A DNA stretch of 10,002 nt. It comes from Bryobacteraceae bacterium. Lineage in GTDB: Bacteria > Acidobacteriota > Terriglobia > Bryobacterales > Bryobacteraceae. A program made the translations under genes and the position numbers. The notes below the pieces were generated by a model that made no database searches, was not told the DNA's origin, and was given only the letters and a program-made list of their open reading frames with translations. Position 1 is the first letter of the stretch. Every line of letters begins with the position of its first letter. The stretch covers positions 1 through 10,002 of the forward strand of contig JACMLA010000123.1 in assembly GCA_014379815.1 (NCBI GenBank), read 5' to 3'. Positions 1 through 6,423 of this stretch are shown here, piece by piece.

Positions 1-64
1 CCTGGCCAACGCGCTGCTTTTTATGTACCTGGCCCTTAGGCCGCCTGATATCGCTCAGGTTCAT
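1..64 (-). CDS. rplO: 50S ribosomal protein L15, N-terminal fragment
   Basis: L15 is a 50S assembly protein that binds 23S rRNA. Only the first 21 codons lie in the window and the gene runs off the left edge. Translation from the ATG at 64-62 gives MNLSDIRRPKGQVHKKQRVG and then Q. This matches the usual bacterial L15 start: a short hydrophobic 'L..L/I' opening, then a basic stretch ending in RVG(R/Q)G. The family usually has Arg where Gln21 stands. The start codon overlaps the stop of the upstream coiled-coil ORF in an ATGA (64-61), which suggests translational coupling. A Shine-Dalgarno-like GAAGG lies at 74-78, inside that upstream ORF, 9 nt before the ATG. Position directly after rpmD and the small ORF fits the standard rpmD-rplO order. 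The call rests on a short peptide plus context. Confidence 0.85.
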   Translation of the reverse strand, partial: MNLSDIRRPKGQVHKKQRVGQ

Positions 65-291
65 TTGTCTGTACCTTCTTCCAGATCTTCAATCCGGTGC
101 TCATGAGATTCGGCGATGCGGGCCAGGGCGCTAATCGACTGTACTGTTTCGGCCAGTAACCCACGGACGTCAGTCATCTCGCGGCTATGCTGCTCTTCAT
201 GCAGGCGCTGCGAAGCGAGAAGCATCTCAACAGACTGTGCGAGCGCCTCATGACGCTCAGTAAGTCTCTCAATACGCTCGTCAATCGACAT
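61..291 (-). CDS. small predicted coiled-coil protein between rpmD and rplO
   Basis: This encodes a 76-residue hydrophilic protein of unknown function. It has no signal peptide, membrane segment or cysteine. Hydrophobic or core-like positions repeat with 3-4 spacing: 3, 7, 10, 14, 17, 21, 24, 28, 31, then after a stutter at 31/35/39 again 39, 42, 46, 49, 53, 56, 60, 63, 67, 70. This predicts one long, nearly continuous coiled-coil helix. Several core sites are polar (His14, Gln28, His31, His63), and the C-terminus is acidic (EDLEE). It starts 34 nt after the rpmD stop, behind a weak GGGGG motif 6 nt upstream of the ATG. It ends in an ATGA overlap with rplO, so it appears to be translated as part of the operon. 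No ribosomal protein normally sits here. I recall similar short coiled-coil hypotheticals in Acidobacteriota, but cannot verify homology. It could be a ribosome-associated or assembly factor, or an unrelated gene captured by the operon. Confidence 0.75.
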   Translation of the reverse strand: MSIDERIERLTERHEALAQSVEMLLASQRLHEEQHSREMTDVRGLLAETVQSISALARIAESHEHRIEDLEEGTDK

Positions 292-306
292 GCAGTGCCC
301 CCATGT

Positions 307-315
307 TTATCCACA
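307..315. promoter_or_regulatory. perfect DnaA-box sequence (possibly fortuitous)
   Basis: TTATCCACA on the plus strand equals the consensus high-affinity DnaA box. It lies in the 34-nt gap between the rpmD stop and the coiled-coil ORF start. I saw only one copy, with no cluster and no AT-rich unwinding region, so this is not an origin. It may be chance or a single DnaA regulatory or titration site. Confidence 0.25.
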
Positions 316-325
316 CTTGCCAGAT

Positions 326-508
326 CTAGTCGACAATCCGCAGCAAATGCGGAACCTTCGCTACCATACCGCGGAACGAAGGATTATCCGGTCTCACCAC
401 AACCTGGTTCATACGCTTCAGGCCGAGGGCACGAACAATGATCTTGTGCTTCTCAGGCGTACAGATCGGGCTCTTCACCAGTTTAATCCTGATCATTAAA
501 TCCGACAT
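326..508 (-). CDS. rpmD: 50S ribosomal protein L30
   Basis: L30 is a small 50S protein that contacts 23S rRNA. The 60-residue product matches bacterial L30 (about 60 residues): the basic opening strand IRIKLVKSPICTPEKHK, then VRALGLKRMNQVVV, and a C-terminal S-F-R-G-M-V.KV.HL segment. The frame stays open upstream to 589, but that part only overlaps the end of rpsE. The ATG at 508-506 is preferred because it gives family length and follows a GAGGGA-type Shine-Dalgarno a few bases upstream. A second Met at residue 5 is a possible alternative start. It begins 10 nt after the rpsE stop. The next gene on the transcript is the coiled-coil ORF, not rplO directly as in the usual spc operon. Confidence 0.95.
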   Translation of the reverse strand: MSDLMIRIKLVKSPICTPEKHKIIVRALGLKRMNQVVVRPDNPSFRGMVAKVPHLLRIVD

Positions 509-2693: not shown

Positions 2694-3266
2694 TTAAACC
2701 GCGCGGGCCTCGGGACGCGAACCCGTGAACGGCATACCTAAATGCTTCAGCAGAGCCAGCCCCTCGGCATCGGTGCGAGCCGTGGTCTGAATCGTGATAT
2801 TCATTCCCTTGGTTTTATCGACCTTGTTATAGTCAATCTCCGGGAAGATCAGCTGATCTTTAATGCCCAGAGTATAGTTGCCGCGTCCATCGAAGGATTT
2901 CGGGTTCACACCCCGGAAATCCCGGACACGGGGTAATGCCACTGTCAGCAGACGATCGAGAAACTCGTACATGCGGTCACCACGTAAGGTGACCATGCAG
3001 CCGATCGACATACCTTCGCGCAGTTTGAAAGCAGCGATGGACTTCTTCGCCTTGGTTGTCACCGGTCTCTGACCTGTAATCGTGCCCAGTTCCTGCACGG
3101 CGGCATCAATGAGCTTCTGGTTTCCGGTAGCCTCGCCCATGCCGACGTTGATCGACACTTTCTCGAGTTTAGGAACCGCCATCACGTTCTTGTAGGAAAA
3201 GTCTTTCACCAGCGCCGGGACAACAACGGTCAGGTAGTGCTCCCGGAGCCTTGCGTTTGCTGCCAT
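2694..3266 (-). CDS. rplE: 50S ribosomal protein L5
   Basis: L5 binds 5S rRNA and forms part of the central protuberance, touching the P-site tRNA and an intersubunit bridge. The 190-residue product has the family core: [11 protein letters not shown] near residues 36-46, [22 protein letters not shown], a middle region [22 protein letters not shown], and [20 protein letters not shown]. Length is slightly above the common 180, with about 10 extra residues split between the ends. Its ATG shares one base with the rplX stop (TAATG at 3268-3264), which suggests coupled translation. In E. coli the S8 repressor site overlaps the rplE start. I saw no clear equivalent here. Confidence 0.98.
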
Positions 3267-5124: not shown

Positions 5125-6423
5125 CTACTCTTTAGGACCGTCGGACGGCTTCTCATCCGACCCCGCATCCGAACCGGCATCCGCACCGTTATCCGAACCA
5201 CGAGCCTCATTCCGAGGCTGATCCGCACCCGCCTGGTTCCCGGTCGCCGCAGCATCCGGCTGGGAAGAACCAGCAGCCGGAACCTCAGAGGCCGTAACCT
5301 CAGAGGCCGGAACAAGAGCTTCTGAAACACCAGCCGGAGCATCTGCCACAGGTGCACTGCTACGGGCTTCCTGTTTCCAGCTTGGCTGCGATTGCGGGGA
5401 CGCCAGCGGCGGCAAAATTGGACCGCCCGGACGCTGTACCGGTTCCTGCAAAGGTTGAGTCACACCGGCCGTGTCGGCACTGCTTTCCGTACCTGCCGCA
5501 GGTGGCTGCACGCCGGCAGGCTGCTGTTGCGGGCGCTGATACCCCCCGCCCTGATAACTTCCACCGTAGTTTCCGGCGCCCTGATAACCACCCGGACGAG
5601 GTCCGCGAGGCCCACGGTCTCCAGCAGCACCGCCACCAGGACCGCCGGCACCCCCGGGTCCGCCACCGACACGGTCACCGGGACGCGGGCTGCGATCCAT
5701 GCGGGGTCCGCGATCGGCTCCCCCGCGATCTCCTCGGTCGTTGCGGTCGCGCCGCCTGGGTTCAGGATCCCGTCCCAGCAATCCGGCCCGGCGAACGTCG
5801 CCGAGCACTTCGCCCTTATAGATCCAGCACTTGACGCCAATCGCCCCGTAAGTCGTACGGGCTTCGGCAAATCCGTAGTCGATATCCGCACGCAACGTAT
5901 GCAGCGGCAGCTGACCTTGCAAATACCACTCAGAACGCGCGATCTCCGCGCCATTCAAGCGGCCCGATACCCGTACCTTAATGCCCTTGCAGCCAAACCG
6001 GAGCGCACTGTCCACCGCTTTGCGCATCGCGCGCCGGAACGCTACGCGCTTTTCCAGCTGCAGCGCGATCGATTCCGCCACCAGCTGGGCGTCCAGCTCA
6101 GGCTTGTGCACTTCCTGAATATCGATGAAGACTTCGCGGTTCGTCTTGCGTGCCAGATCGCCCTTGAGCTTTTCGATCTCCGCGCCCTTCCGGCCGATGA
6201 CGATGCCCGGACGGGAGGTCCGGATCGTGATCCGGAGCTTGTTACCTGGACGGTCCACCTCAATCGAGCTCACGCCAGCCGATTTCAGCCGGTTCGCCAG
6301 CGCTTTCTTCAGCTCCAGATCTTCCAGCAGGAGCTTCGCATAATCCTGCTTGGCAAACCAGCGCGAGCGCCAAGTCTTGGTGATGCCCAGTCGAAAACCG
6401 TACGGATGTACCTTCTGACCCAT
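5125..6423 (-). CDS. rpsC: 30S ribosomal protein S3 with a long disordered C-terminal tail
   Basis: S3 lies on the 30S head at the mRNA entry channel and, with S4 and S5, helps unwind mRNA. The first 208 residues are a normal S3: [14 protein letters not shown], a type II KH domain with the GxxG loop G77-R-K-G80, and a C-terminal domain ending [13 protein letters not shown]. Family members usually end at about 210-240 residues, but this product has 432. The extra part runs in blocks: an Arg/Asp/Gly-rich segment (about 209-250), a Gly-rich segment with Tyr280, 286, 290 and 295 in Gly/Ser/Gln settings (251-300), a Pro/Gln segment (301-350), and an Ala/Ser/acidic end (351-432). It has no predicted fold and no cysteine. 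The frame is continuous with no break, so the tail is probably made. Spacing is 6 nt to rplV and 31 nt to rplP. Confidence 0.96.
5281..5309 (-). repeat. 15-bp-period tandem repeat in the rpsC tail
   Basis: Two identical 14-bp copies, AACCTCAGAGGCCG on the plus strand, lie at 5281-5294 and 5296-5309, one base apart. In the S3 frame they encode an A-S-E-V pattern twice (about residues 373-381). This looks like a recent slippage duplication in the disordered tail. Confidence 0.85.

Follow-up and report, generated by a model that had tools for sequence, protein, structure and literature searches.

The locus described here raises the question of whether a small gene that lies within a ribosomal protein operon, and overlaps the start of one of its genes, owes its place to a role in the ribosome or came to it by other means. 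The gene lies between rpmD and rplO in the spc operon of a Bryobacteraceae bacterium, close to one end of a stretch of 10,002 bases that was analysed as a whole and is here called the window. A first reading of the sequence (the original prediction) had described a small coiled-coil gene coupled to rplO, and had suggested that its product might be a ribosome-associated factor or that its translation might tune L15 output.

The arrangement itself is as that reading described it. The open reading frame (ORF), in a frame chosen by a custom hexamer coding score, comprises 76 codons from ATG to TGA at 61-291 on the minus strand, with the product MSIDERIERLTERHEALAQSVEMLLASQRLHEEQHSREMTDVRGLLAETVQSISALARIAESHEHRIEDLEEGTDK. 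Its TGA (63-61) and the ATG of rplO (64-62) share four bases as ATGA, and GAAGAAGG (81-74, minus strand), which includes the predicted GAAGG, lies inside the ORF 9 nt upstream of the rplO ATG. The features of this part of the window are as follows.

61..291, minus strand: 76-residue coiled-coil ORF, belonging to the dispersed MTIDERIERLTERHEALAQSVELL family defined by alignment A1
223..291, minus strand: conserved N-terminal family block, residues 1-23 (alignment A1 and codon analysis)
79..96, minus strand: R-h-x-x-h-E trimerization motif RIEDLE, residues 66-71 (motif definition from PMC3653964)
74..81, minus strand: GAAGAAGG, likely rplO ribosome-binding site, codons E71-E72-G73 (putative use by the ribosome)
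61..64, minus strand: ATGA overlap of the ORF stop with the rplO start (read from the sequence)
1..64, minus strand: rplO (L15), first 21 codons, cut by the window end (similarity to the L15 N-termini of relatives)
292..325, minus strand: spacer of 34 nt between rpmD and the ORF, with no sigma-70-like site
326..508, minus strand: rpmD (L30) (TIGR01308, 78.2 bits)

The distance from rpmD to rplO in the window is 261 nt, and the spacers among its remaining S10-spc genes are tight, ranging from -23 to 77 nt.

A large and dispersed protein family

Pfam and NCBIfam searches with the ORF product returned nothing above cut-off. A search with the single sequence retrieved 163 proteins with E<=0.01 out of 175 candidates, of which the highest-scoring, self excluded, is 55% identical over 96%. 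In the resulting alignment (A1, 51 rows, with the window ORF as row 1) an N-terminal block, MTIDERLERLTERHEALAQSVELL, and a C-terminal block, LARIAExHExRIxxLE, flank a middle whose length varies; the window ORF carries both blocks, the N-terminal one being defined for this comparison as DERxxRLTERHEALAQSVE. A family profile, scored against 7,991 candidates, gathered 4,673 protein clusters at E<=1e-5; none of the 120 clusters listed has a Pfam domain, and the window ORF, itself part of the profile, matched it at E 1.1e-23. The family is large, undescribed and unnamed, and is composed of single-helix coiled-coil proteins, mostly of 55-135 residues, which bears out the statement in the original prediction that similar short coiled-coil proteins occur in Acidobacteriota. 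No description of the family was found in the open-access literature searched. PMC3174227 reports many short repeats in the Solibacter genome, and its main text contains no word beginning "coiled".

Whole-genome searches gave matches in 7 of 30 near relatives with the single sequence, in just 2 of the 297 genomes of a phylum-wide sample, and in 62 of the 237 genomes of one Bryobacterales-type taxonomic family (that of genome G019), with 1-7 matches per genome and some matches with internal stops. The 80 places that were fetched represent the stronger part of the match list, the weak tail being under-sampled; of 20 further regions, the analysis took in just two pieces of contig C43 of genome G476. 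Gene calls in fetched loci were made by a custom hexamer model.

Across the 86 family stretches in 82 fetched host loci and the window, the orientation of the upstream and downstream neighbours is mixed (same-same 27, same-opposite 20, opposite-same 19, opposite-opposite 14, and six with one side unknown). Eight of ten near same-strand downstream neighbours have Pfam matches, namely to T2SS protein F, indole-3-glycerol phosphate synthase, an amidase, a SIS/CBS protein, a 2Fe-2S thioredoxin-like ferredoxin, a short-chain dehydrogenase, the beta-lactamase family and DXP reductoisomerase. The family is dispersed without a fixed neighbour in these host loci and the window. A partner gene of the kind found in a toxin-antitoxin pair was considered and rejected, no neighbour recurring except at orthologous loci and in a few weak matches. 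All-against-all blastn of 40 loci placed similarity almost entirely within the ORF, the exceptions being one flank in common and a small number of orthologous loci, and revealed no terminal repeats or DNA ends shared between copies.

Selection on the encoded protein

For the codon analysis and the motif count, five near-identical copies were dropped, reducing the set from 79 to 74. Over 27 conserved columns in these 74 copies, synonymous entropy was 1.40 against an expected 1.37, and codon choice at these amino-acid-conserved columns is no more constrained than in other genes. Because synonymous variation equals expectation, mobile DNA ends hidden within the conserved blocks could be ruled out. 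The original prediction had called for dN/dS estimates, and among twelve orthologous or close family pairs the ratio was 0.06-0.19 in ten of the eleven that were usable and 0.79 in the remaining one, the orthologous pair L154/L202. Comparison of the window ORF with four relatives gave pN of 0.27-0.35 and pS of 0.77-0.97, with dS saturated. These rates point to strong selection at the protein level, established for the family, dS being saturated for the window copy. The claim that the ORF is a captured and truly coding small coiled-coil gene is supported by this large family with its conservation at the amino-acid level.

Predicted product and known families

The heptad pattern with a single stutter that had been proposed for the product is present, with one register break. 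Hydrophobic residues, Ala counted, occupy six of the seven a/d positions in residues 3-24, and eight of the eleven in residues 39-74 are hydrophobic once the register has shifted; the stretch between is polar. AlphaFold2, run as a monomer with A1 as input, predicted one helix spanning residues 3-74 (pLDDT 95.5, pTM 0.58). Within their final 25 residues, 58 of the 74 copies contain the motif R-h-x-x-h-E (shuffled sequences: mean 1.68, maximum 9) as do 46 of the 51 rows of A1; in the window copy RIEDLE is in register, with I67 at a and L70 at d. Parallel trimeric coiled coils such as coronin-1 and GCN4p-M3, as presented in PMC3653964, have this motif at g-a-d-e in common with those 58 copies, and the family resembles them in its one long predicted helix. 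From sequence and model we infer that the product may be a rod of three identical parallel chains, constant at its ends and varying in between.

Resemblance to described families is slight. The Pfam family SKA2 (PF16740) shows weak, heptad-type similarity to the window ORF (E 0.0041) and matches 8 of the 51 A1 members at E<=0.01; at 17.3 bits against a cut-off of 30.1, membership was rejected, and every other Pfam family matched at most two of the 51. With Pfam, NCBIfam and PHROGs matches weak throughout, assignment to a known family was rejected as well. The best result of a PDB profile search had an E of 0.11.

Turnover between close species and association with phages

Copies of the family are present or absent between close species, as seen at two filled and empty sites with flanks that are 86-91% identical. 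The copy in G019 (L149) occupies 361 bp, comprising 58 before the ATG, the ORF and 21 past the stop, against 22 bp in G017 and G460; that in G426 (L157) occupies 410 bp (54 before and 32 after), against 106 bp resembling another repeat in G425. No target duplication was seen by eye at either site, the spacers being too divergent to place the ends, and a third comparison (L145), split over two contigs, was left out. Other copies are common to related species (L148/L185/L186, L139/L142 and L092/L093). Spread by recent copying within a genome is unsupported, since median identity is 0.453 within genomes (41 pairs) and 0.413 between them (3,040 pairs), and just 7 of 48 copies sampled from genomes with more than one have their nearest copy in the same genome. 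A second small ORF in L157 (1696-1959, minus strand), 87 residues long, coiled-coil-looking and of a different subfamily, sits in a 270-bp stretch of G426 that is missing from its close relative G425.

The family units are small, dispersed and located in spacers, as are miniature non-autonomous elements and intergenic repeats, and non-coding repeats occupy the same rpmD-rplO spacer in relatives of the window. Unlike such elements, however, the family retains an intact, conserved protein, and DNA similarity between its copies is nearly limited to the ORF.

Many copies also appear to carry a leader of their own. A -10-like box (TANNNT, with at most two mismatches to TATAAT, 10-45 nt upstream) precedes 62% of 78 copies, compared with 26% of 340 other genes and 32% of the 153 that have a gap of at least 60 nt.

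In IMG/VR, 16 contigs encode family members, about 11 of them distinct by inspection, and phage genes lie near the member in 8 of the 11 contigs scanned. Named by PHROGs, these neighbours are a portal and a terminase (L299), an integrase and a tail fibre (L300), a tail-lysozyme-like protein (L302), Erf-like and RecE-like recombination proteins (L304), a transposase (L307), an exonuclease (L313) and a terminase (L314); the eighth contig is L301, with an integrase. In L303 the neighbour is a Sak4-like protein with a weak match, and in L306 and L312 no clear phage structural or recombination gene was found among the genes scanned. A single-sequence search of named phage and plasmid records gave no match. 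In L303 and L304/L305, TTGACA/TTGACT promoter-like boxes overlap palindromes directly ahead of the gene, within the 45 bases before position 3001 (by eye), and, judged by their letters, these palindromes look like operators.

Phage morons are accessory prophage genes that often have their own promoter. The present family is comparable in that it consists of small genes found on contigs of temperate phages, often with their own -10-like box, and in that its copies come and go between close species; it differs in that the majority of the copies located stand alone in spacers of the host, and no neighbouring phage gene was noticed for them. We infer that the gene may be carried between hosts by phages.

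Significance of the spc operon position

As the family occurs at unrelated loci in related bacteria and phages, its place in the spc operon is probably a chance landing and not the sign of a ribosomal job. The -10-like box that most copies possess, a common but not obligatory trait of the family, is missing upstream of the window copy, and no sigma-70-like site was found there; for these reasons the window ORF is probably expressed as part of the spc transcript.

The ORF might instead act mainly in cis, its translation tuning L15 output by coupling whatever its protein does. The ATGA overlap and the internal ribosome-binding site are what this account would lead one to expect, and a parallel exists in the phage contig L301, in which the start of the integrase gene overlaps the stop of the family member as GTGA and a purine-rich site lies in the member's last codons. 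We nevertheless consider a primarily cis-acting role unlikely. The family is selected at the protein level, and none of the host copies overlaps a same-strand downstream gene, the nearest such gene being 8 nt away. Tetramers resembling ribosome-binding sites occur within the final 24 nt of 37 of 79 family copies, against 84 of 283 other genes. With this modest excess as its support, the provision of such a site by the final codons was not adopted as a family trait. Moreover, L15 ribosome-binding sites located within rpmD are ordinary where the gap between the two genes is short. Some tuning of L15 output as a side effect of translating the ORF is possible.

The original prediction of a novel factor that associates with ribosomes or assists their assembly, and is synthesized together with the ribosomal proteins, drew on the overlap with rplO and called for conservation of the position to be checked. 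This check used rpsE-matched loci, taking the best 80 of 362 relatives in the genome collection, most of which are titled Bryobacterales, Bryobacteraceae or Acidobacteria. In these 80 the rpmD-rplO gap ranges from -4 to 142 nt with a median of 16, in agreement with the premise that rplO normally follows rpmD directly. By tblastn, the ORF lies between rpmD and rplO in none of the 80, and the few weak matches in these loci (E 0.07-6) fall outside that spacer. Two of the loci, L018 (titled Bordetella parapertussis) and L039 (titled Acidimicrobiia), encode S5 proteins 76% and 73% identical to that of the window; both came back among Acidobacteriota, and their titles look wrong. In a tree built from eight ribosomal proteins, with 78 rows, the window forms a long, weakly placed branch, with its nearest relative at 0.45 substitutions per site, and the collection holds no close relative of it.

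The comparison was extended to the 237 genomes of G019's taxonomic family, in which the gap was resolved for 148 (103 genomes with 104 loci, among the matches listed, and 45 added later) and unresolved for 89. One of the added genomes, G458, had its gap read by eye, L15 being cut there, and five gaps of 68-98 nt were judged by size, being too short to hold such an ORF. A family-related ORF between rpmD and rplO is absent from 147 of the 148, the sole exception being G476. Its ORF, also of 76 residues, starts three bases past rpmD and matches the family profile at E 1.5e-7. Because the closest local alignment between it and the window ORF has just 10 of 18 residues matching and its distances to both neighbours are unlike those of the window ORF, it is probably an independent landing of a distant relative.

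The same operon of G476 contains a second family member (contig C43, L195:2995-3396, minus strand), a protein of 133 residues with internally duplicated ERHEALAQTVEL units encoded between rplX and rplE, and the two ORFs together could hint at a preference for the operon. They speak for a ribosomal factor, as does the overlap with rplO. Against it stand the lack of the ORF at this position in all 80 loci and in 147 resolved genomes, and the location of the other copies outside ribosomal operons, no ribosomal protein gene having been found near any in the copy loci examined, G476 excepted. A ribosomal factor identified by conserved position was therefore rejected, and we regard a ribosome-associated role as very improbable. 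The S3 protein of G476 (319 residues) and that of the window have a tail patch, PILPPLxSPQxQPSWKQE, in common; the window S3 (rpsC, 5125-6423, minus strand) is 432 residues long, and its long low-complexity tail is rich in Gly, Arg, Pro and Gln and then in Ala, Pro and acidic residues.

Several other long rpmD-rplO gaps, of 69-199 nt, are filled by repeat-like, non-coding sequence, on which account the spacer seems permissive. Nine loci (L227, L239, L244, L246, L249, L254, L264, L267 and L270) have such spacers of 85-199 nt, and in some of them short units, G/C-rich or of the CAGGAGT type, are repeated in tandem or inverted.

The rpmD-ORF-rplO junction rests on one contig end, because the record apparently stops where the window does, 64 bases into rplO. 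An assembly chimera could in principle have joined a family copy to rplO at this point, the ORF lying less than 300 bases from the end of the record, and a second contig with the junction was not found. Such an error is scarcely to be expected, for a random join would rarely produce an in-register ATGA together with a well-spaced ribosome-binding site, and G476 demonstrates that insertions do occur in this spacer. That the ORF is spurious and non-coding, as its small size and want of a Pfam or NCBIfam match above cut-off might suggest, can practically be dismissed given its 55% identical relative, protein-level conservation with synonymous sites free, and the excess of pS over pN against four relatives.

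Conclusions

We consider it likely that the ORF represents a phage-linked accessory gene for a coiled-coil protein, which came to rest in the spc operon and at present overlaps rplO. In small units made up of a short leader, the ORF and a tail of 20-30 nt, genes of the family are scattered over temperate phages and genomes of the Bryobacterales type, and one copy would have landed in the permissive rpmD-rplO spacer in this lineage. Weighing against this account are the missing -10-like box and sigma-70-like site of the window copy, the want of shared DNA ends or clear target duplications, the two family-related ORFs in the operon of G476, the dN/dS of 0.79 for L154/L202, the lack of a match in named phages or plasmids, and the low count in the phylum-wide sample. 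Ribosomes finishing the ORF may re-initiate at rplO by way of GAAGAAGG, and the product would be an accessory, moron-like protein without a ribosomal role. More speculatively, and with considerable doubt, a phage-borne, self-expressed mobile coding unit of ~350-410 bp, unnamed until now, might seed Bryobacterales chromosomes and enter short spacers even in the essential spc operon. It would spare the downstream gene in that the conserved Leu-Glu-(Glu/Gly)-Gly codons at its C-terminal end could serve as a ribosome-binding site for a start codon that overlaps it.

These results unite thousands of protein clusters, with no Pfam name in the listed rows, as one family that is strongly selected, has links to phages and undergoes turnover among close species, and that represents a tractable part of the Acidobacteriota dark proteome. 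They further indicate that an accessory gene can land, and be tolerated, even in the spc operon, and serve as a warning that operon position alone is a poor guide to function.
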